DNA of 64,000 nt, taken from the NCBI GenBank assembly GCA_016865015.1, contig CP018226.1, positions 4,677,501-4,741,500 of the forward strand, in the 5' to 3' direction. This DNA is from Rhizobiales bacterium IMCC20636. Lineage in GTDB: Bacteria; Pseudomonadota; Alphaproteobacteria; Rhizobiales; GCA-2746425. This document shows positions 7,583-27,527 of the stretch, in pieces. Positions within the stretch are counted from its first letter, which is position 1. The number at the start of each line of letters is the position of its first letter. The position numbers were made by a program, and so were the translations under genes. The notes under the pieces are model-generated. The model ran no database searches. It had not been told where the DNA came from and was given only the letters and a program-made list of their open reading frames with translations.

Positions 7583-8716
7583 ATGTCGCAGCACTATGCT
7601 TTTGTTGGATGCTATTCAGGATTTGCGCCGGGCGAACTCGGCTGGGTCGGCTCAAAAAATCCCGGCGCGGGAATCCTCTGCTTTTCATTCAACAGTGCTG
7701 ATGGCGCACTATCCCCGACAGGCAAAGTTATGAAGCAGGATTCACCGACCTGGCTGGAGATTCACCCAAACCAGCGCTTTCTTGTGGCCACACATGAGCT
7801 GTCCCACCACACGGGCACGCCCGCCGGTGTCGGGTTTGTCACATCCTATCGGATAGAGGCTGATGGGTCGCTGGAGAAGATCTGCACCCAGGAAACCGGC
7901 GGTCGGGGCAACACCTGTGCAGCCTTTGACCGGACCGGGCGGTTTCTGCTGGTGACGCGATATTGGGAGGGCGGCATCTCGGTGCTGCCATTTGACCCTG
8001 AGACCGGACTGATCGGCGCAGTCACAGCGGCGCCTGACCACAGCGGCGCGGGACCCGATCCCGTGCGCCAGTCGATGCCGCACCCACACGGCATCCACGG
8101 CGATCCCCGATCGGACCGGGTCTATGCCATGGATCTGGGCACGGACAAGGTGCACCAATATAGGCTTGACCCGGCGACGGGCGCGTTGTCGCCGCAGGAA
8201 GACGTGGCGCTGACGCCGGGCTGCGGCCCGCGCGGCATCAATTTTCACCGCTCATTGCGGGTGGCCTATGTGAATTGCGAGCTGGATGGCACCGTCGTGG
8301 TCTGCGCGGTGGACGATGACACCGGGCTGGTGCCGATACAATCCATTTGCTGCTATCCGGACGGTTTTGCGGGGCGCGACCATCCGGAGAATTTCGGCAT
8401 GGCCGATTTCTGGGGCGCCGAAGGCTGTTTGTCGGCCAGCGGATCACATTATTACTATATCTGCCGGGTCGACCAGAGCATCGCCGTGTTCACCGTGGAC
8501 CCGGCCGATGGCAAGCTGACATTTTCCAGCCGCCACGCTCTTGCGCCTCACGCCAATGCCCGAAACCTCACGCTGGACCCAAGCGGCCAATATGTGCTTG
8601 TGGCCAGCCAGGACGCCGACTGCGTTGAATGTTTTCGCATTGATCCCAGCACTGGCGCGCTGGAGCTGGCCGACACGCAGTTTGCGCCCTGTGCTGCTGA
8701 CGTTGCGGTTGTTTGA
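7583..8716 (+). CDS. Lactonase-family beta-propeller protein (6-phosphogluconolactonase-like)
   Basis: A 377-residue protein of the seven-bladed beta-propeller lactonase family (Pgl/YbhE-like). Blade-like repeats show the recurring pattern of a hydrophobic strand, then D-P-x-T/S-G-x-L (for example DPETGLIG, DPATGALSP, DPSTGALEL). The family hydrolyses sugar lactones such as 6-phosphogluconolactone; the substrate here is not shown. A GGGGAG ribosome site precedes the ATG. It follows the sugar ABC operon in the same direction after a 103-bp gap, which fits a role in oxidising the imported sugar through a lactone. The first residues are not a clear signal peptide, so a cytoplasmic location is assumed. 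Confidence 0.75.
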   Translation: MSQHYAFVGCYSGFAPGELGWVGSKNPGAGILCFSFNSADGALSPTGKVMKQDSPTWLEIHPNQRFLVATHELSHHTGTPAGVGFVTSYRIEADGSLEKICTQETGGRGNTCAAFDRTGRFLLVTRYWEGGISVLPFDPETGLIGAVTAAPDHSGAGPDPVRQSMPHPHGIHGDPRSDRVYAMDLGTDKVHQYRLDPATGALSPQEDVALTPGCGPRGINFHRSLRVAYVNCELDGTVVVCAVDDDTGLVPIQSICCYPDGFAGRDHPENFGMADFWGAEGCLSASGSHYYYICRVDQSIAVFTVDPADGKLTFSSRHALAPHANARNLTLDPSGQYVLVASQDADCVECFRIDPSTGALELADTQFAPCAADVAVV

Positions 8717-8855
8717 TGGGGGGGCGACTGGGCTGGTGCTGATGGAAGCTGGACCAGAGTTTGCTGAAATACGGGGATAATCATGTGAGTTCGTCACGAT
8801 GTCGCGGAAATAATCTGACTTGAGTAATCCCTAATCGCAACCGAGATAATGAGGC

Positions 8856-11800
8856 CTAGTTCACCTCCAGAATTCGGACCTCTTTTATTTCAACCCCCAC
8901 TTGGTACTCAATCGTATCTCCCACCTCGCAATCGATCAATGCGCTGCCAAGAGGCGCATGCACACTGAGTTTGCCGTTATCGAGGTCATTGCCCTCGTTA
9001 ACTAGCGTGAATGCTAACCTGCGGCCCTTTTCTGACAGATTTTCAATTTTCACATTGCTTCCAAGCCGGATTGTCTCAGACCCATTTGGTGCTGCAGGTA
9101 CGGGCGAAACTTCCCGATTGGCGTTTTCATCTTTGTCAAAAAGGCCACGTTGGGTGGTTAGTTCGCCAGGCAGGAGCATATCAATCGTTTCAATCGGCTC
9201 TCGTGCTGTCTCAACGTCCTCCTCCTCCTGATACTTAGCCGCAACAGCTTTTTTGTTCCGAGCTTCCTTTGTAGCTTGTTCCGCCTGCGCAGCCGCCAAT
9301 GCGGCGCCGATCGCTTCTTTCAGCCTCTCTACCTGTGTTCTGGTGTCATTGAACCAATCTGTTGACCAAATTCGATGAAACCGCCACCCGAGGCCTTCGA
9401 GAACCTCCTGACGCAGACGGTCTCTATCGCGGCTGGAACTTGAAGAGTGGTAGCTCGCACCGTCGCATTCGACACCCAACAAGTAGCCATAGGGCCAGTC
9501 CGGATGGCGCACACCGATATCTATCCGGTAACCGGCAGCTCCAACCTGCGGAACAGCCTCGCAACCAAGCGCCTCGATCTGGCTGATGACATAATCCTCG
9601 AACGGATTTTCCGCAACTCCGCCGCCTATATCGGCTTTGTCCGGAATATTGCCCGTGGCACAGTACTCCAACCACGCCCGGAACATCTGGACGCCCCGAT
9701 TCTTGCCCTCGCTCACCAAGATGTCAGTGGGCCTGAGTGATGTGAAGGTTACGATCTTTCGCTTGGCACGCGTGAAAAGAACATTCAGCCGACGGTGCCC
9801 GTGGGCAGAGTTGATCGGGCCGAACCGCTGGTGGGTTCGCGCGCCAACCGCTTCGGGGCCATAGAGTGTAGAGATGAACATCACATCGCGTTCATCGCCC
9901 TGAATGGTTTCAAGGTTCTTGATGAAGAATTCCTCAAGGCTGTCATTGCGCTCCTGCCATTCGCGCACATAGGTCTGGACGTGGGGGTTGCGTTCCAGTT
10001 CACGCTCAAACTCCTCTCGGATAAGCTCTTTTTGGTCCGAGTTCATGGTGCAAACTCCGAGGGAGAGATCCGGCGTCTCCTTCATATGGGCTACAACCGC
10101 CATCACAACAGCGCGCGCCTCAATCTGATTAGTGCGCGCCCTATAGACACCGTGGACTTCTTCAAGGTGGACGCCGAAATCCAGATCATCCTCTCGCGCC
10201 GATGGGAAAATTGTCAACTTACCATCATACATCCATTCGTTCGAAAAACGAATGAGCGCCGAATGACGTGATCGGTAGTGCCAGCGCAGCTGGCGGACTG
10301 GACGAAAAGCCATATTGGCCATCTCGAGCACGCTTTCGCTGTCCTCGCGTAGGTCTTCATCAACATCGGCGTCATCTAGAATTTTCTGGAAGAAGCTTGT
10401 GGGCGGGAGCTGCTTGGTGTCCCCAACGACCACCGCCTGTCTGGCACGGCTGAGCGCACCAATGGCATTTTCCGGCGTCATCTGGGAGGCCTCATCGATG
10501 ACCACCAGATCGAAAGTCATACCGTCGTGGAGATAATTGGCCACGGCTAACGGTGACATCATCCAACAAGGCTTGAGCTCTAGCAAAGCCCGCCCTGCAC
10601 GACGCGTCAGCTCTCGAACACCTATCTGGTTGCGTTTTTTCCCCATCTCATTGCGTATCAAACTCATATCAGTAAATGTCGATTTCCGGCCGATGCCGTT
10701 ACCCATAGGCGGATTTGCAGAACTGACTAGATAGTTGCGTACCACTTCGCGGGACATTCGGACCAAAAGCCGGTCCTTTTCAACGAACTCAGCGCGGATC
10801 CGGTCAAACTCTTCACCATCAATACCCTGAAGGCTCGCGTCGTGGATCTCATAAGCCCTGTCGGCCATCGACTTGGCAATAATGGATCGCACGATAGAAC
10901 CAAGCCGCGTCAAATCGAAAGCCTCGCCTTCCGACAAAACCCAGTCCACCAGCTTGGTGAATCCTTGATCGCGCAGCGTGTCTTCAGCCTTGCGCAGGCG
11001 AGCTCGCTCCATGAGCCCGGAAGGATCAGCGGCCGCAGCGCGCATATCCGATAAGCGGTCAAACAGCGCATCAGGCGTTGCTAGATTTCCCGGCAACTGC
11101 AAAATCTGGCTGATTCGTGCCGTTTCGGCATCAATCGCCTCCCGCTCCGCCGTTAGTCCCCCCACTTCGGTGACAAGCGAACCTATTGTGCCTAACTTCA
11201 ATGCTGAAAGGATGAATGCAGGTTCAGGGGCTCTGGCCACGAGTTCCGCAACCGAGCATTCAACAATGAGCGTATCGGTGGGCGTTCTGGTACCGGCGAA
11301 CCGCTCACCCAAAAATTCTGCAGCCACTGACTGCTCTATTGAATCCGTCAACTCCTGCTCGCGCTCCTTGCGCTCCAGGTTTTCCGCAATTGCCTCCAGC
11401 GGCACCGCGGTCACATCGGCAAAGAGATCGAGATGTGTCTGTGCTTCTTTTTTCAGTACCTCCTCACAGGCGAACCGCGCTTTAAGAAGTTCAATCCCGC
11501 CCTTTAACTCACTCAGAGAAAACTTCGACCGGCCCGAATATCCCACAAATTTTTTAACACTGGAAAGATCGGCCTCCTCCAAAGCCATGTAAAGTTTGGT
11601 ATCTCCCCCAGCGATCTCATGGCAGAGATCATGCAATGCCACCAATTCATCAATCTTGTTTAGATTTGTAGATAGGCCTGCGAAATTCTCTCCAAAGCTC
11701 TCCCAGAAGTCAGAATCCTGAGCAAAAGTTCGTTTCTTGGCAAGCCAGTCCGCGTAAGTATTCAGGCGACTTGCCATGATCTCACAATTGTCTTTCTTGT

Positions 11801-14366
11801 GTCCACCAAGACCATTCACATAGGTATTGCGCGCCGCTTTAAACTCGCCTGACATGAAGCGGAAAATTCCTGCATCGGCAATCGTTGCAGCCGCGCGACG
11901 CATAGTACTCTCATCATGAATACCGGCTTGAGGCAGACCCCGCCGGATATGGTCTAGTTCAAAGTTGAGATCTCGTACCAACTTTTTTAGTTCGTCAGCG
12001 CGCAAGCTAGCCAACCGTTTAGAGTCTGCCTTGCGGAACGCCAGCGCGTGATCTGAGTATGCCAGTAAACGACTTGCTTCACTATGAATGACCGACAGCG
12101 GTTGGGCTGACCGCGCCGCCCAGTCACCCGGCAGATCTGACGCAAGGCTGAGTTGCTGTTCTAGGTCCGCCATCTTTACTCGAAGCTCTTCGATACGCCG
12201 GCTATGAATCGAAGGATCAATTATGTCTCCATGCGTTTTTGCAAAACTGGCTGCGCCGCGCAACTGATCCAATAAGCCCCAAGCTTCTGGTTCATTCATA
12301 TAGCGCATCAACTGGGCTGTCAGTGTCTGGCGCTCTCTAATCTGGCTGCAGAGTTCTTCAACGGCCCGCCGGACTGCCAAATCTGACAGTCTTTCGACCA
12401 TGTCTAAATCGACCTCAGAGCCCCGAGCTTCGATCTCTCGAAGAAAACCGAGAAGATGGGGGAAATTGGAGACAAAGAAATCCTGCCCAATTAGCGGTGC
12501 CGCCAAAGATTCGTCGACCTGGAAAACGAAGGCTTCCATCCGAGTGGCGAGAGCATCTAGGCTTTCACAAATGTCTTCGGCGTCATCGCGGTTCAGGATC
12601 ATGGCCGTCGAATCAAGCCAGAGCGTAGGCATCCCCTTAACCCGCTCCAGCCGCTCGGCCAGGCTTTCCGCGTAACTAACAATTGTCTCGATTTGCGCCA
12701 TCCCCAATTTTTCACAGTCCGGTAGGGATATCCGTCGAACCGGCTTGGGAACACGGTCACGCTCATCACTAGTCGAGATGCCGTAGCCGATTACATCATA
12801 GACCGAATATCCGGAGCTGCCGAAATTCGCTGACAGCGCATCAAGATAGTCCTGCAACACCTTAAGGCGCTGCTCAAGTGCACCCCGCCGCGATGCAAAT
12901 TTCCGTTGGGGGCCTTCGTCTACTGGTCCCATCGACAGTCGCTCTTCGAGACTATGGTAGATTTTCTCCTTCGTGCCTCGACCGGCCTGAAGCGGTAAGA
13001 TGAACTCCCCCAGGTTCGCGGCCTCCAATCGGTTCTTAACAACGTCTAAGGCTGTCAATTTTTCCGCGACGAAAAGAACTTTCTTGTTATCCGCAAGGGC
13101 GGCAGCAATGAGATTAACGATTGTCTGACTCTTACCCGATCCTGGCGGACCTTCGATGCTGACATGAGCGCCGTCAGCAACATCCACCAACGCGGAATAC
13201 TGAGAGGCATCCGCATCCATCACAAGGTAAGGAACCTTGCGCATAGTCTGTGGGTCATCTGTGCTGTAGATATCGGCATAAGCAGCTTTGCCGCTGCCAG
13301 TGGTCGCCAATAGGCGACCAACAACTTCACTTTCCGCCACCGGGCGCCTGGCGGGGTCAAGATCGTGATACATGGCTATCTTAGATGATGGAAAAATCCC
13401 AATCACCACTTCTCGGCGCACGGACCATTTCCAACTGGGAGGAGCAGTATTAGCAACTTCCGAAAAATAGTTCTCTACACTGCCCGAACTGTATTCAGGC
13501 AGGTCTAACCTGTGCTCGCTCAGAAGCTTCTGTTTAAGAGTTGTATTTACCGAGACGGCACCTTCCCCGACCAAGTGAAACTCCGATCCCCGCGGCGATT
13601 GCTTTCGAGTCAGACGAATTTCCATTAAAAGCAGCGGGCTGACATAGTTGTCGCGATCGTCAGGGCTTTTCCATTCCAAAAGACCAAAGGCGACATGCAG
13701 CACGTTGACACCTGTCTCCCGCTCGAAACCACGCCCCTTTTCCAAGATTCCTTTCGCAATCCGGGTAAGCCTGTCGGGCAATACCAAGGTCTGGATGTCG
13801 GCATCATTGTGCCTCCCATCGTCATGTTCATCCTCGGGCAGGGGAAGACTGTATGACGGTGAAATTCCATGAGCCTTTGCATGCTCTGTCAGAGAAAGAT
13901 TCTCCTTGGTCTGGCGCTCCGGCAGACCAAGGTCCGCGCGCAAGCGATCTTTCAATGTGCGCTCAAGATCAAGCGTCTTCTGTTCAATATCGTCAGTCTC
14001 AGAGTTAAGCGCCGCGATTCCTGCCAGGTATTCCTTGTCTTCGTTTCGCGCCCTGTAAAGCACGTCTAGAAAGACGTCCGTCTGTTCATCCGGCAGTTCC
14101 ACCTCGAGGGCTGGCAGCGGAACCAGACGCATTGGCGTACCACTTGCAAGATTGAAGCGCAAAACGTCAGGCAGTTCATCCACAACACGTAGTATGTTTG
14201 TGGAGTTCGGTCTAAAAGGAATTGATACAAGAGGATTCCTGCGGGACCCATCCAACAGGCGTTTACGCAGTTCCTCAAGGCGTTCCGCTACAAGTTCAAT
14301 GATTGACGGATCTGCTAAATTCTTATCGGCGGCTGATGATTGCGGCACTTGATTGTACTCTTTCAA
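8856..14366 (-). CDS. DUF4011 / SF1 helicase / PD-(D/E)XK-like nuclease with GreA/GreB-like C-terminus
   Basis: A giant cytoplasmic protein of about 1,836 residues. DUF4011-type region about 25-290 (RLEELRKRLLDGSRRNP, NVLHVAFGLLEW). Superfamily-1 helicase core split by a long helical insert: Walker A GPPGSGKS with K412, motif II VVIDEAS with D1291-E1292 and motif III GDTKQLPP, then C-terminal helicase motifs (QGDERDVMFIS, RLNVLFTRAK). A PD-(D/E)XK/MTES_1575-like nuclease follows, with D1616 and E1633-C-D1635 (RIDIGV, GVECDGASYH). The last 70 residues resemble the GreA/GreB C-terminal domain (HAPLGSALIDCEVGD). The first in-frame start is TTG at 14366; a GTG at 14348 has the better GAAAGAG ribosome site. 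Defence against foreign DNA is inferred. It stands alone. Confidence 0.82.
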   Translation of the reverse strand: MKEYNQVPQSSAADKNLADPSIIELVAERLEELRKRLLDGSRRNPLVSIPFRPNSTNILRVVDELPDVLRFNLASGTPMRLVPLPALEVELPDEQTDVFLDVLYRARNEDKEYLAGIAALNSETDDIEQKTLDLERTLKDRLRADLGLPERQTKENLSLTEHAKAHGISPSYSLPLPEDEHDDGRHNDADIQTLVLPDRLTRIAKGILEKGRGFERETGVNVLHVAFGLLEWKSPDDRDNYVSPLLLMEIRLTRKQSPRGSEFHLVGEGAVSVNTTLKQKLLSEHRLDLPEYSSGSVENYFSEVANTAPPSWKWSVRREVVIGIFPSSKIAMYHDLDPARRPVAESEVVGRLLATTGSGKAAYADIYSTDDPQTMRKVPYLVMDADASQYSALVDVADGAHVSIEGPPGSGKSQTIVNLIAAALADNKKVLFVAEKLTALDVVKNRLEAANLGEFILPLQAGRGTKEKIYHSLEERLSMGPVDEGPQRKFASRRGALEQRLKVLQDYLDALSANFGSSGYSVYDVIGYGISTSDERDRVPKPVRRISLPDCEKLGMAQIETIVSYAESLAERLERVKGMPTLWLDSTAMILNRDDAEDICESLDALATRMEAFVFQVDESLAAPLIGQDFFVSNFPHLLGFLREIEARGSEVDLDMVERLSDLAVRRAVEELCSQIRERQTLTAQLMRYMNEPEAWGLLDQLRGAASFAKTHGDIIDPSIHSRRIEELRVKMADLEQQLSLASDLPGDWAARSAQPLSVIHSEASRLLAYSDHALAFRKADSKRLASLRADELKKLVRDLNFELDHIRRGLPQAGIHDESTMRRAAATIADAGIFRFMSGEFKAARNTYVNGLGGHKKDNCEIMASRLNTYADWLAKKRTFAQDSDFWESFGENFAGLSTNLNKIDELVALHDLCHEIAGGDTKLYMALEEADLSSVKKFVGYSGRSKFSLSELKGGIELLKARFACEEVLKKEAQTHLDLFADVTAVPLEAIAENLERKEREQELTDSIEQSVAAEFLGERFAGTRTPTDTLIVECSVAELVARAPEPAFILSALKLGTIGSLVTEVGGLTAEREAIDAETARISQILQLPGNLATPDALFDRLSDMRAAAADPSGLMERARLRKAEDTLRDQGFTKLVDWVLSEGEAFDLTRLGSIVRSIIAKSMADRAYEIHDASLQGIDGEEFDRIRAEFVEKDRLLVRMSREVVRNYLVSSANPPMGNGIGRKSTFTDMSLIRNEMGKKRNQIGVRELTRRAGRALLELKPCWMMSPLAVANYLHDGMTFDLVVIDEASQMTPENAIGALSRARQAVVVGDTKQLPPTSFFQKILDDADVDEDLREDSESVLEMANMAFRPVRQLRWHYRSRHSALIRFSNEWMYDGKLTIFPSAREDDLDFGVHLEEVHGVYRARTNQIEARAVVMAVVAHMKETPDLSLGVCTMNSDQKELIREEFERELERNPHVQTYVREWQERNDSLEEFFIKNLETIQGDERDVMFISTLYGPEAVGARTHQRFGPINSAHGHRRLNVLFTRAKRKIVTFTSLRPTDILVSEGKNRGVQMFRAWLEYCATGNIPDKADIGGGVAENPFEDYVISQIEALGCEAVPQVGAAGYRIDIGVRHPDWPYGYLLGVECDGASYHSSSSSRDRDRLRQEVLEGLGWRFHRIWSTDWFNDTRTQVERLKEAIGAALAAAQAEQATKEARNKKAVAAKYQEEEDVETAREPIETIDMLLPGELTTQRGLFDKDENANREVSPVPAAPNGSETIRLGSNVKIENLSEKGRRLAFTLVNEGNDLDNGKLSVHAPLGSALIDCEVGDTIEYQVGVEIKEVRILEVN

Positions 14367-14994
14367 ACGAGAGTTAACTGTAGTGATTGCATTGCTAGAT
14401 CATCGGAAGCAACGGCATGACAGCTCATTGCTTCTAAGTCCCAACCCTCGCCCCTCTGCATCGCAAGCAAGACCTCCAAGCGCAGCGTGTTCGCCCTTAG
14501 AGCATCCAGACCAAATCTCAGGAACATTTCACGACCATGCTACAATTGGATGCGAAATTGAGAAGCTCTTGCTACAAATTTAACTTTAATCGTTTCAGAC
14601 CATATCCAACAGGACCGGCGAATCAACCATTAAGTTGTTATTAACGGATTCTACAATCCATTTTCCGCATTAGGCTAACATACGTTCCAGTATATGCTTT
14701 GGGATCTGGTCCCGAGTTGGACCGGTTTATGCTTGCCTGTCCTCTGTGTGATCTTGCTGACAAGCGCAGACATTCTCATGGCCACGATTGAGAGAGATCA
14801 TCGAGTAGATTTCGAGCGTACGCGTCTTTTATTTGGCCGCAAATAGACCCACCTAACGCTCAAACGTTCTTCGATTGACGTACCAAAAAAGACATTGCAT
14901 CGAGCAATACTGGACCCCATCCGCCCTAAATGGCTGTTTTCTGCGATTTATGTTGAATTCTGAGGGGTTTTCTGGACGCTCTGAAACGAGCCGA
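14367..14994. other. Gene-free stretch between helicase-nuclease gene and tRNA-Leu
   Basis: About 630 bp with no convincing coding frame or ribosome site on either strand, and visibly more AT-rich than the core genes. It must hold the promoter of the helicase gene (minus strand). I see no integrase remnant and no repeat of the tRNA 3' end. Confidence 0.5.
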
Positions 14995-15079
14995 TGGTGC
15001 CCCCTCCCGGAATCGAACCGGGACTCCCGAAGGAACGGGATTTTGAATCCCGCGCGTCTACCAGTTCCGCCAAAGGGGC
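14995..15079 (-). tRNA. tRNA-Leu (anticodon CAA)
   Basis: On the minus strand an 85-nt class II tRNA can be folded. The acceptor arms GCCCCTT and AGGGGGC pair with one G-U; the D-loop is AACTGGTAGACGC; the anticodon arm is CGGGA-TTCAAAA-TCCCG with anticodon CAA. A variable arm GTTCCTTCGGGAG is followed by a T-arm with GGTTCGATTCC and an encoded CCA. It reads UUG codons. Its 3' end faces the gene-free stretch and the helicase-nuclease gene, the side on which tRNA-integrating elements insert. Confidence 0.95.
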
Positions 15080-22468: not shown

Positions 22469-22748
22469 GGGAGAGCCTTAATGTGCGTGGAACCTCTGTT
22501 TATTCCGTTTCCTGCATCTGTGACAAGCGCTTGCTGTCAATCGCCCGGGCTGTGTCAGCTATGGATATGATCGCACTAACCGAGTTGTGAATTGCGTCCG
22601 CTGCCAATGTGCCCTCATACTCGTCTTCATCTATCTTTCACGATAGGCTGTGTAAAAACATGCGAGGAAATCGCAGGGATTGCACTGCGACGTCGGACCT
22701 GAAACCAGTTTCAGGCGGACACCGGGAAGCGCACATCAGGGAGCCAAC

Positions 22749-25700
22749 ATGACACTGGCAAAAGACAAGACTCGCGACAGCATCATCCGAACTGTCAAAT
22801 CCGCCCTTACAAAGACCAACGAAAAGCTGCTTGCCGAGTTTGCCGGCCTGTTGTTTGAAAATGCGGCTCCGGAAGATATGTCCGCATTTTCCACTGAGGC
22901 GCTGATTGCGATTGCCCGCAATGCCCATGAACAATTGTCCCACCGCAAGGCGGATACGGAAATTGTCTCGATTCACCCATCCAAATCACGGCCCGGCGGC
23001 CTGACCGTCCATGTGGTCAATGACAACATGCCCTTCCTGTTCGACAGCGTGATGTCTGAACTGCAGAAGACCAGCGCAGATATCGCGCTTGTTCTGCACC
23101 CGGTCCTGTCCGTGACCCGCGACAAGAACGGCGCTCTGGAAGGATTGAAGGCACAGCACAAGAAAGGCCCCCAGTCCCGCGCCATTCGCGAGAGCCTGAT
23201 CCATATCGAGATCAATGCCTTTGCCGATCCGGATACGGCGCAAGAGCTGAAAGAAAACCTGCATCTGATGCTGAAGGATGTGCGCATGGCGGTGAAGGAC
23301 TGGAAGTCCATGCTGCTGCGCCTGGAAGAAACCATCCTGAATTACAAGACCAGCCCGCCCCCTCTGCCAGCGGGCGAAGTTGATGAGGCCGTTGCCTTTC
23401 TGCAATGGCTGGTGGATCAGAATTTCACGTTTCTGGGCATGCGCAATTATGCCTTTTCCGGCGGCCCGAAGCGCGGCACTCTGAAACGCAACACTGATGA
23501 TGGTCTTGGCATCTTGCGCGACCCGAATGTGCGCGTGCTGCGCCGTGGCCGCGAACTGGTTACCATGACACCGGAAATCCGCGAGTTCTTCATGGCACCG
23601 GAGCCGCTGATCATCACCAAGGCCAATGTGAAATCCCGGGTCCACCGGGCCACCTATATGGATTATATCGGCGTCAAGACCTTTGATGACAAAGGACGCC
23701 TGTCCGGTGAGTTGCGCATTGTCGGTCTGTTCACCTCCACCGCCTATACGCGCTCGGTGAAGCAGATCCCGATGCTGCGCAAGAAGGTGGACAGGCTGCT
23801 GGAGGCGTCGGTTTTCGACAAGGACAGCCATGCAGGCAAGGCCCTGCTGAATGTGGCGGAAAGCTACCCACGGGATGAATTGTTCCAGATTGATCTGGAA
23901 ACCCTGTCCGATTTTGCCGACAAGATTCGCCAGCTTGATGAACGCCCGCGCCTGCGTGTGCTGTCGCGGCTCGACAAGTTCGACCGGTTTGTCTCGGTCC
24001 TCGTCTTCGTGCCGCGTGACCGCTACAACTCCACCGTCCGCTCGCGCATCGGAGACTATCTGAAGACGGTCTATCAGGGCCGTCTGTCGGCCTATTACCC
24101 TGCCTTCCCTGAAGGCAATATGGCACGGGTCCATTTCATTATCGGCCGCTCTGAAGGCGAAACGCCAAAGCTGGACCAGGCTGAACTGGAAGCACAGATC
24201 ACCGAAATCGTGCGGACCTGGGATGATGTCCTGCGCAGCGCCCTCGGTTCAGCCGGTGCCGGCATCTATGAAGGGGCCTTTCCGGCTGCCTATCAGGATG
24301 CGTTTTCCGGAACCCAGGCCGTGGCCGACATTGCGCGGCTTGAGGCCATGGACGAACGCGATGACATTTCGATTTCCTTCGACCGGGAAGACGGCATGCC
24401 GGATGAGCGTGTCAGCCTGAAGGTCTATGCAGCCGGACAAGCGCTGGCGCTGTCAAAACGTGTTCCGTTGCTGGAAAATATGGGCTTTGCCGCGCTCAAT
24501 GAGCGAACCTATCAGATCAATCCGACCGACCGTCCAACCGTGTTTTTGTATGACATGACGCTGCAGGCCAATTCCGGTGCTGTGGATCTGGCGGCGCTGG
24601 GCACCAAACTGACCGACTGCTTTCTGGCGATCTGGCAGGGACGTGCGGAAAATGACGGCTATAATTCCCTGATCCTGAATGGTGGTCTGGCGTGGCGCGA
24701 CATTGCCCTGCTGCGCACCATCTCGCGCTATCTGCGGCAGGCACGCATTCCCTTTTCGCAAGATTACATGTGGTCGACCCTCAACCGCTACAGCGCCATT
24801 GCCGGTGAGCTGGTGGCCCTGTTTCATGCGCGTTTCGACCCGGCCCATGCCGACCCTGTTGCCGAAGAAGCCAGCTTCCAGCGCTTTTTGTCGGCGCTGG
24901 ACGGGGTTGTCAGTCTGGATGATGACCGGATCTTGCGGCGGTTTGCCAATGTCATCAAAAGCAGCGTGCGGACCAATTTCTATCAGGTCGATGAAGAGGG
25001 TGCGCCGGAACGCGTGATCTCGATCAAGATCAACTCGCGCCAGGTGGAAGAACTGCCGGAGCCGCGTCCATTCCGGGAGATCTTTGTCTACAGCCCGGAG
25101 GTGGAAGGCGTGCATCTGCGCTTTGGCAAGGTTGCCCGTGGTGGTTTGCGCTGGTCGGACCGCGCGCAGGATTTCCGCACCGAAGTTCTGGGTCTGGTGA
25201 AAGCACAGCAGGTCAAGAATGCGGTCATCGTGCCGGTTGGCTCGAAGGGTGGATTCTACCCCAAGCAATTGCCGGACCCGGCGGCCGGACGTGAAGCCTG
25301 GTTTGAAGCGGGCCGCGATGCTTACAAGATTTTCATCAGCAGTCTTCTGGATATCACCGACAATCTTGATGGTGATACGGTGGTGCCACCGAAAAATGTG
25401 CTGCGCCATGAGCCGGATGACCCCTATCTGGTGGTTGCGGCTGACAAGGGCACGGCGACCTTTTCCGATACGGCCAATGGCATTTCCGAAGACCATGATT
25501 TCTGGCTCGGCGATGCCTTCGCATCCGGCGGGTCGGCCGGCTATGATCACAAGAAGATGGGCATCACCGCCCGTGGTGGCTGGGAAGCGGTCAAGCGCCA
25601 TTTCCGCGAGATGAACCGCGATATCCAGACCGAGCCTTTCACCGCCTGCGGCGTGGGCGACATGTCGGGTGATGTGTTCGGCAATGGCATGCTGCTGTCG

Positions 25701-27527
25701 AAGCAGACAAAACTGGTGGCAGCGTTTGATCACCGGGACATCTTCATCGATCCGGACCCTGATCCGGCCAGCTCGTGGGAAGAACGCAAGCGGTTGTTCG
25801 ATATGGGCCGGTCTTCGTGGCAGGATTACAATACGAAACTCATCTCCAAAGGCGGCGGCGTGTTTCCGCGCAGCGCGAAATCGATTCCCCTGTCCGCTGC
25901 GATGAAAAGCCTGTTGGGCCTGACCGCCGACAAGGCTGCGCCCAATGAAATCCTGACCGCAATTCTGAAACTGGACACCGATCTGCTGTGGTTCGGCGGC
26001 ATCGGCACCTATATCCGCGCCACCACCGAAAGCGATGCAGATGCCGGCGACAAGGCCAATGATGCGATTCGCATCACCGCGCTTGAGGTGCGGGCCAAGG
26101 CCATTGGCGAAGGTGCCAATCTGGGCGTCACCCAGCGTGCGCGCATCGAGTATGACCGGCAGGGTGGCCGGGTGAACACCGACGCGATTGACAATTCGGC
26201 GGGCGTGAATTCCTCCGATATGGAGGTCAACATCAAGATCGCGCTGGGCGCTGCCATTCGCAGCGAGCGGCTGGATCTGAAAAAGCGCAACCGTCTGCTG
26301 GCCTCGATGACCGAGGAAGTGGGCGATCTGGTATTGCGCAACAATTATCTGCAGACCCTGTCCCTGTCTCTGACAGAACGTGAGGGCATGGATGATTTCG
26401 GCTTTCAGGCGCGGCTGATGGATCAGCTGGAAGATCGCGGTCTGCTGAACCGGGTGGTGGAATTGCTGCCCGATGATGCTGCGATGAAAGAAAAACAGGC
26501 CAATGGCGAGCCGCTGTCACGGCCGGAAATTGCCGTGCTGCTGGCCTATGCGAAAATTGTGCTGTTTGACGATCTGCTGGCGTCCGATGTGCCGGATGAT
26601 CCTTATCTGGCCAAGGAACTGTTCCGCTATTTCCCCAACAAGATGGCGAAATCCTATGTGGATGAGATTTCAGCGCACAGGCTGCGCCGGGAAATCATTG
26701 CCACCATGCTGGCCAACTCGCTGATCAACCGGGGCGGTGCAACTGTGCTGACACGGGTGGCCGATCAGAGCGGCGCTGCGCCCGCTGAAATCACCCGCGC
26801 CTTTGCCATTGTGCGCGACAGTTTCGGCCTGACCGATCTCAACACTCAGATTGATGGTCTGGACGCCAGGATCGATGGCCAGTTGCAGCTTGAATTGTAC
26901 GCTACTGTGCGTGAGTTGCTGACCGAACGCATCATCTGGTTCCTGAAGAATGCGGATATGAGCCAGGGCATTGCCAGTGTGGTGGAGAAATTCACCTCGG
27001 GCATCAGCACCTTGCGCGGGGCCATCACGCCGTTTCTGCCGGATTATCTGAAAGAGCAGGTTGCGAGCGCCAGAACCCGGTTCATTGAAGGCGGTGTACC
27101 GGACGCTCTGGCTGACCGGATTGCCGGTCTGCCACTGGAAGCGATGTTGCCGGATATGGTGCAGATTGCCCAGAACAGCGGACGCTCTCTGGACCATGCG
27201 GCGCAAGCCTATCTGGAGGTCGCGGGCCTGTTCAAGCTGGGCCGTCTGGATGCGCTGGCGCAGGATATTCCGATCTCGGATTATTATGATGGCCTGGCCG
27301 TGCAGCGGGCGCGTCAGGTGCTGGGAGAAGCCCATAGGGCGATCACAGCCGATGTGCTGGCTGCCAGCCCTGCGGACGCGGTTGATATTGCGGTTTGGAG
27401 TGTCGCGCAGGGCGCAGGCATCAGCCGCACCAGTCATGCTGTGGAAGGTGTTGTGGAAAGCGGCACCTTGACGGTTTCGAAAATTGCGGTTGCCGCCGGT
27501 CTGTTGTCGGATCTGGCTGACAGCTGA
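22749..27527 (+). CDS. NAD-specific glutamate dehydrogenase, large (180-kDa) type
   Basis: A catabolic enzyme of 1,592 residues that deaminates glutamate to 2-oxoglutarate with NAD. The N-terminal third holds the regulatory ACT-like region found only in this class. The catalytic core includes GGLRWSDR (about 798-805) and VGSKGGF (about 831-837), and the nucleotide-binding stretch GVGDMSGDVFGNGMLLS lies near 967-983. Full length for the family. The ATG at 22749 has AGGGAG just upstream; 23 extra upstream codons are in frame but lack a ribosome site. It is followed after 55 bp by an MFS gene on the same strand. Confidence 0.93.
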   Translation: MTLAKDKTRDSIIRTVKSALTKTNEKLLAEFAGLLFENAAPEDMSAFSTEALIAIARNAHEQLSHRKADTEIVSIHPSKSRPGGLTVHVVNDNMPFLFDSVMSELQKTSADIALVLHPVLSVTRDKNGALEGLKAQHKKGPQSRAIRESLIHIEINAFADPDTAQELKENLHLMLKDVRMAVKDWKSMLLRLEETILNYKTSPPPLPAGEVDEAVAFLQWLVDQNFTFLGMRNYAFSGGPKRGTLKRNTDDGLGILRDPNVRVLRRGRELVTMTPEIREFFMAPEPLIITKANVKSRVHRATYMDYIGVKTFDDKGRLSGELRIVGLFTSTAYTRSVKQIPMLRKKVDRLLEASVFDKDSHAGKALLNVAESYPRDELFQIDLETLSDFADKIRQLDERPRLRVLSRLDKFDRFVSVLVFVPRDRYNSTVRSRIGDYLKTVYQGRLSAYYPAFPEGNMARVHFIIGRSEGETPKLDQAELEAQITEIVRTWDDVLRSALGSAGAGIYEGAFPAAYQDAFSGTQAVADIARLEAMDERDDISISFDREDGMPDERVSLKVYAAGQALALSKRVPLLENMGFAALNERTYQINPTDRPTVFLYDMTLQANSGAVDLAALGTKLTDCFLAIWQGRAENDGYNSLILNGGLAWRDIALLRTISRYLRQARIPFSQDYMWSTLNRYSAIAGELVALFHARFDPAHADPVAEEASFQRFLSALDGVVSLDDDRILRRFANVIKSSVRTNFYQVDEEGAPERVISIKINSRQVEELPEPRPFREIFVYSPEVEGVHLRFGKVARGGLRWSDRAQDFRTEVLGLVKAQQVKNAVIVPVGSKGGFYPKQLPDPAAGREAWFEAGRDAYKIFISSLLDITDNLDGDTVVPPKNVLRHEPDDPYLVVAADKGTATFSDTANGISEDHDFWLGDAFASGGSAGYDHKKMGITARGGWEAVKRHFREMNRDIQTEPFTACGVGDMSGDVFGNGMLLSKQTKLVAAFDHRDIFIDPDPDPASSWEERKRLFDMGRSSWQDYNTKLISKGGGVFPRSAKSIPLSAAMKSLLGLTADKAAPNEILTAILKLDTDLLWFGGIGTYIRATTESDADAGDKANDAIRITALEVRAKAIGEGANLGVTQRARIEYDRQGGRVNTDAIDNSAGVNSSDMEVNIKIALGAAIRSERLDLKKRNRLLASMTEEVGDLVLRNNYLQTLSLSLTEREGMDDFGFQARLMDQLEDRGLLNRVVELLPDDAAMKEKQANGEPLSRPEIAVLLAYAKIVLFDDLLASDVPDDPYLAKELFRYFPNKMAKSYVDEISAHRLRREIIATMLANSLINRGGATVLTRVADQSGAAPAEITRAFAIVRDSFGLTDLNTQIDGLDARIDGQLQLELYATVRELLTERIIWFLKNADMSQGIASVVEKFTSGISTLRGAITPFLPDYLKEQVASARTRFIEGGVPDALADRIAGLPLEAMLPDMVQIAQNSGRSLDHAAQAYLEVAGLFKLGRLDALAQDIPISDYYDGLAVQRARQVLGEAHRAITADVLAASPADAVDIAVWSVAQGAGISRTSHAVEGVVESGTLTVSKIAVAAGLLSDLADS

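Follow-up and report, generated by a model that had tools for sequence, protein, structure and literature searches.

A single gene of Rhizobiales bacterium IMCC20636, lying within the 64,000-nucleotide stretch of DNA analysed here (hereafter the window), encodes a very long helicase-nuclease that ends in a domain of the kind found at the C-terminus of the transcription factors GreA and GreB. A function in defence, regardless of the tail, is in our view quite likely, and on balance we favour the fuller interpretation that the protein is a single-gene defence helicase-nuclease of the Hhe/PDC-S37/ProA group, which would be docked to RNA polymerase via its Gre tail and would have DNA as its target.

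The gene is a single intact open reading frame on the reverse strand (Table 1), which when read from a TTG comprises 1836 codons. The true start is probably the GTG at residue 7, as the equivalent GTG in G002, the genome of a sister species which shares the GTG-CCG with the window gene, is directly preceded by an in-frame TAA. A sequence-only reading of the window had described a polypeptide of about 1,836 residues joining a DUF4011 region, a split SF1 helicase and an MTES_1575 nuclease, with which the reading frame and the Pfam calls agree: the helicase halves are recognized as AAA_11 and AAA_12, and every called domain scores above its curated cut-off. The catalytic residues it had named are likewise all found in their motifs, namely K412 in GPPGSGKS, D1291-E1292 in IDEASQ, and D1616, E1633 and D1635 in the nuclease motifs. 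Nearly all Gre-tailed homologues keep the helicase motifs and the E..D nuclease motif, a few diverged rows being missed by the strict regular expression used for the nuclease. Outside the Gre domain, a structure model of residues 1220-1836 matches UPF1, IGHMBP2, Sen1/Senataxin and Dna2, on which basis the motor is predicted to be a UPF1-like SF1B helicase. Helicases of this kind translocate 5'-3'.

Table 1. Positions of the features discussed, in window coordinates unless a locus is named.
Feature	Position	Strand	Remarks
Whole ORF, 1836 aa from TTG	8856..14366	-	likely start GTG 14348 (1830 aa)
DUF4011, residues 36-281	13524..14261	-	Pfam PF13195, 86.6 bits (cut-off 22.2); dN/dS 0.10
Helicase motif I region, residues 385-460	12987..13214	-	GPPGSGKS with K412; dN/dS 0.034
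Large insert between helicase halves, residues 461-1220	10707..12986	-	fast evolving, dN/dS 0.26
Helicase motifs II-VI, predicted UPF1/Sen1/Dna2-like, residues 1221-1545	9732..10706	-	IDEASQ, QGDERD
MTES_1575 (Vsr-type PD-(D/E)XK) nuclease, residues 1589-1686	9309..9602	-	PF18741, 119.4 bits (cut-off 38.2)
Disordered tether, about residues 1722-1762	9081..9203	-	pLDDT 31-47
GreA/GreB C-terminal (FKBP-like) domain, residues 1763-1836	8859..9080	-	PF01272; HAP loop with P1805
Conserved upstream region, presumably promoter and leader	14367..14662	-	blastn alignment to G002 (about 83%) runs through
tRNA-Leu(CAA), integration site	14995..15079	-	3' end faces helicase-nuclease gene
ORF downstream of Gre-tailed gene	L056:7786-9075	+	TIR-domain protein, 74.8 bits
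ORF homologous to the L056 downstream ORF	L079:12985-14148
ORF homologous to the L056 downstream ORF	L088:10205-11185

By its core, the protein belongs with known and candidate antiphage systems. DUF4011, a split SF1B helicase and an MTES_1575 nuclease, the combination that defines the Hhe-like superfamily, occur together in one chain with intact motifs. We regard the protein on its profile scores as Hhe-like rather than as Hhe, because its best matches are antiphage models but the scores against the Hhe equivalog (NF042953; 1053.5 bits, cut-off 2000) and the ProA equivalog (NF058533; 922.1 bits, cut-off 1500) lie below the cut-offs. Hhe, a single-gene antiphage system in PADLOC, shares with it DUF4011, the split UPF1-class SF1 helicase and the MTES_1575-type nuclease; identity between the two is about 28%, and the Klebsiella Hhe compared lacks a Gre domain. 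The best PADLOC match is PDC-S37, a candidate phage-defence single gene whose profile (1036 bits, E 0, no cut-off given) matches most of the core, and also matches homologues with other tails. In other members, the last 160-180 positions of this model fall on the DUF3320 tail; the window protein, whose Gre module they do not cover, leaves them unmatched. Similarly, the anti-phage protein ProA has the same overall core, and the C-terminal end of its profile is matched by DUF3320-tailed homologues but not by the window protein.

The sequence-only reading had likened the tail of the protein to GreA/GreB, a resemblance that holds at the levels of profile and of predicted structure. Residues 1764-1835 score 48.3 bits against GreA_GreB (PF01272; cut-off 26.9), and the tail sequence scores best with Gre families. 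An AlphaFold2 model of the tail, for which 41 related tails served as input (mean pLDDT 80), retrieves Gre/Gfh1/Rnk structures first in Foldseek (E 1e-6); in structural comparison the best match has a Z of 12.5 (rmsd 2.7 over 76 residues), and the first 11 matches are Gre, Gfh1 or Rnk without exception, followed by FKBP chaperones with Z below 8. In the longer model the Gre domain is predicted with a pLDDT of 88-94, and is parted by about 40 disordered residues from a long helix that follows the nuclease. By profile and modelled fold, then, this is a genuine Gre C-terminal domain. Pfam and the model place only this domain, and the N-terminal coiled coil of GreA, with its acidic tip, is absent from both; a GreA/GreB transcript-cleavage factor is ruled out because a tether and a nuclease precede the C-terminal domain and there is no coiled coil. 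Comparison of the window gene with its G002 ortholog yields dN/dS values of 0.034 and 0.061 for the helicase halves, 0.009 for the nuclease and 0.065 for the Gre domain; the linker (residues 1690-1762) stands at 0.92. The Gre domain is thus as constrained as the helicase while its tether drifts, which in terms of substitution rates is the pattern of a tethered functional domain. Profile score, fold and dN/dS together exclude a chance or spurious Gre match.

Surveying homologues places this tail in an exchangeable position. To the 73 loci found by a genome scan were added loci from relatives and plasmids, and a Gre tail was found in about 43 distinct loci, mainly in Alphaproteobacteria, the others being gamma- and deltaproteobacterial or from Nitrospinota, Dadabacteria and Binatota MAGs. 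When the helicase-nuclease cores are arranged in a tree, most Gre-tailed loci fall in one fully supported clade of 59 rows, 41 of which have Gre. Across this clade the C-terminal slot holds Gre alone, Gre then DUF3320, Gre then a weak DUF4357-like match, DUF3320 alone, TerB-like plus BRCT, a topoisomerase zinc ribbon, or nothing. The core tree requires several gains or losses of the Gre label. In the Gre-domain tree, which has few columns and is weakly resolved, the tails are largely separate from GreA/Rnk and the number of captures is unsettled. The simplest reading of these distributions would be that a targeting module has been exchanged on a constant effector. TerB-like plus BRCT tails (BRCT called by Pfam, TerB-like by eye) form one fully supported clade, sister to the group of the window protein; in its members L030, L054, L057 and L060 these domains occupy the C-terminal 400 aa in place of Gre, and the near identity of their cores across different genera suggests recent transfer. 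A domain following Gre in L037 (6291-7010, +) and L122 gives a weak DUF4357-like match (Pfam was run on L037 only), an order that recalls some restriction-associated proteins, and a Candidatus Omnitrophota MAG homologue ends in topoisomerase-type zinc ribbons (L081:7413-7871, +; PF01396, 40.9 bits).

Sequence and precedent both bear on a possible tethering of the protein to RNA polymerase by its tail. Of 41 tails, 39 retain P1805, which in our own alignment and numbering corresponds to P125 of E. coli GreA, in the loop that holds S121. The substitution S121P impairs binding of GreA to RNA polymerase, and in isolated GreA both domains seem to be needed for specific binding (PMC7527559), so that binding by a lone Gre C-domain may be weak and depend on avidity. 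It may also be that P1805 and the other conserved positions are kept for the fold alone. As to precedents, EAD10-TPR-GreA/B-C-PIN is a stand-alone conflict protein which GreA/B-C is predicted to bring to polymerase on invader or viral DNA (PMC8195603). It resembles the window protein in standing alone with GreA/B-C, but its chassis is unrelated, with TPR, a PIN RNase and variable N-terminal effectors in place of a helicase-nuclease; Pfam detected no TPR or PIN domain in the window protein, which thus falls outside this type. PcrA/UvrD binds RNA polymerase through a C-terminal Tudor domain on a disordered linker, and PcrA limits R-loops (PMC8318588); the likeness extends to an SF1 helicase, a small C-terminal beta domain and the disordered linker, but PcrA/UvrD is an SF1A, 3'-5', core housekeeping enzyme without a nuclease, and uses a different domain and polymerase surface. 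Given the fold, the purifying selection, the loop proline and these two precedents (PMC8195603; PMC8318588), tethering to RNA polymerase appears plausible; it is weakened by the apparent need of GreA for both domains, and by a C-terminal slot that also accepts DNA-binding-type modules. Sister proteins have no such module, DUF3320 or BRCT in place of the Gre domain, which is therefore not essential to the core activity of the family.

The main alternative keeps the defence function, and makes of the Gre-like domain a generic FKBP-like module for contacts with proteins or nucleic acids, for example in self-assembly or in binding a phage protein. A slot filled elsewhere by DUF3320 wHTH, BRCT, a Top1 zinc ribbon, a DUF4357-like domain or nothing would suit such a module, as would tails largely separate from GreA/Rnk in a weakly resolved tree, and FKBP-fold chaperones as the next structural matches. 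We nonetheless think it unlikely, since Gre and Gfh1 are closest in fold by a clear margin, Gre families give the best sequence scores, and the loop has retained its proline.

The genomic setting of the gene is that of mobile cargo. Its G+C content is lower than that of its flanks, which are a tRNA-Leu(CAA) gene and a lactonase-like gene (7583-8716). The 3' end of a tRNA gene is a typical integration site. Upstream of the gene, a sigma-70 promoter scan gave no consensus and nothing above chance, and the tRNA was the sole Rfam match. Two of five genomes in the genus have the gene, as do 14 of 61 relatives at E<=0.001, a count which includes partial matches and two matches to a GreA/Rnk-type domain only. 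G003 has an empty site, about 270 bases separating the tRNA from the lactonase-like gene, and beyond the latter lies an HsdM-type methyltransferase gene (L110:4578-6083, +). At the same tRNA-Leu, G002 carries an island of about 22.6 kb, with a tyrosine integrase adjoining the tRNA and, bordering it on the other side, 18 bp that repeat the tRNA end. Besides the ortholog of the window gene (83% identical), the island encodes a second recombinase, a type IIG restriction-modification enzyme of the MmeI type, a GmrSD_N-AlbA protein and a DEAD-box helicase. The same recombinase module is found at the same tRNA in G001, without the helicase-nuclease. With the HsdM gene of G003 next to the same locus, the tRNA-Leu site is a repeated landing place for defence genes. 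Variable tRNA occupancy, an integrase and a flanking repeat together identify the gene as integrative-island cargo in G002. In the window the integrase is absent, a repeat search and short blast near 8717 gave no credible copy of the tRNA end, and the immediate neighbours look ordinary, such that this copy looks like cargo that outlived, or was separated from, its integrative element. Copies of the tRNA-Leu 3' flank occur in G002 (L109:16194-16220) and G003 (L110:4490-4516) beyond the lactonase-like gene, which was not found in G001 and G004; that gene may itself have arrived in an earlier integration at this tRNA. Further along the window is a 1615-aa reading frame (22680-27527, +), possibly a large NAD-specific glutamate dehydrogenase, a guess made from size only. 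More broadly, homologues occur on one mobilizable and one conjugative plasmid, and Rhizobium johnstonii 3841 has one as well (L047, NC_008380). Phage records gave no close relative, and the sole viral contig in the collections searched was a Paracoccus contig that is also listed among the genomes. A housekeeping or core position is excluded by the patchy presence and the empty site in G003; a tail without structural match to Gre factors and homologues at fixed core positions had been named in advance as refuting the sequence-only reading, and neither was found: the tail matches Gre structures, and the gene is patchy and in G002 resides on an integrative island with defence genes.

No partner gene accompanies the helicase-nuclease. 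The sequence-only reading had rightly stated that none is adjacent in the window, yet had left unused the tRNA-Leu(CAA) alongside, and its suggestion of a one-gene system gains support from 37 Gre-tailed loci with no conserved partner among them. An integrase-like ORF, identified by sequence reading, recurs in 6 of the 37, and the other recurrences are an ABC-transporter paralogue cluster and an unnamed ORF family, the latter in four loci at varying distance; apart from these and a homologous downstream ORF in three Deltaproteobacteria none recurs, and a partner-gene reading is rejected. A tRNA lies <=0.8 kb upstream in three Gre-tailed loci, the integrase-like ORF being present in two of these as well. 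Matches to SoFic, GmrSD, AriA and restriction enzymes were seen among neighbours no more than two genes away from the Gre-tailed genes, and a small control from one genome gave two single-member families in 48 genes. The three Deltaproteobacteria MAGs (L056, L079 and L088) have homologous ORFs directly downstream of a version of the gene with Gre plus a C-terminal extension.

These surroundings bear on two further alternatives. The protein might serve the integrative element itself, through inter-element competition, plasmid exclusion or transfer control, and not protect the host from phage. In its favour are the residence of the gene in G002 on an element that bears an integrase, and the homologues on a mobilizable and a conjugative plasmid. 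Such a role is, however, compatible with phage defence; the related Hhe proteins carry an antiphage annotation, and in the window genome the gene has persisted although the integrase of the element is gone. We consider this alternative rather improbable. A role in host genome maintenance or transcription-coupled repair, with PcrA/UvrD- or Sen1-like clearance of R-loops or stalled polymerase, is brought to mind by a UPF1/Sen1/Dna2-like motor with an RNA-polymerase-type tail, recalling the R-loop limiter PcrA (PMC8318588), but is very improbable against the patchy presence, tRNA-island location and empty site, the defence neighbours and signs of horizontal spread, and the fused nuclease, whose MTES_1575 type is associated with defence.

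Returning to a defence nuclease docked to RNA polymerase, the interpretation favoured above would work as follows. The antiviral or anti-mobile-element helicase-nuclease would arrive as cargo of an integrative element at tRNA-Leu. The Gre C-domain, on its flexible tether of about 40 residues, would dock at the secondary channel of the host RNA polymerase by way of the beta' rim helices, holding the UPF1/Sen1/Dna2-like 5'-3' motor beside the transcribing enzyme; the motor could then load on exposed single-stranded DNA or RNA, after which the Vsr-type nuclease would cut the transcribed (foreign) DNA. How foreign template might be told apart is a matter for speculation, R-loops, stalled or backtracked polymerase, and unusual transcript load being candidate cues. 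We tentatively go one step further, to a possibility that we rate somewhat short of even: a transcription-coupled immune nuclease, with a Sen1/Dna2-like helicase, that would inspect active transcription from its dock on the polymerase and destroy foreign template, Gre being but one in a set of exchangeable targeting modules. Swapping these may point the same effector at different signs of invasion, with Gre directed at polymerase, DUF3320 or the zinc ribbon at DNA, and BRCT at phosphoproteins or DNA ends. Among giant MTES_1575 proteins, which likewise fuse an SF1 helicase to a Vsr REase without a modification enzyme, HEPN, transglutaminase and two wHTH (DUF3320) tails have been described, the last proposed to recognise DNA (PMC3710099). 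Polymerase targeting by GreA/B-C in conflict proteins has already been predicted, for a different family (PMC8195603). We found no published description of a DUF4011-Gre fusion in the freely accessible literature searched, and the window protein joins the themes of these studies (PMC8195603; PMC8318588; PMC3710099) in a combination new to that literature.

How single-gene helicase-nucleases of the Hhe type find foreign DNA is a question for which the literature searched offers no answer. Strong selection on a captured domain for docking to RNA polymerase suggests that transcription is the guide in one lineage or more, and the natural module swaps provide ready-made comparisons. If the protein binds polymerase and protects in a tail-dependent manner, it would stand beside PcrA/UvrD and Sen1 as a counterpart that carries a nuclease, and transcription surveillance would become an experimentally tractable principle of bacterial immunity.
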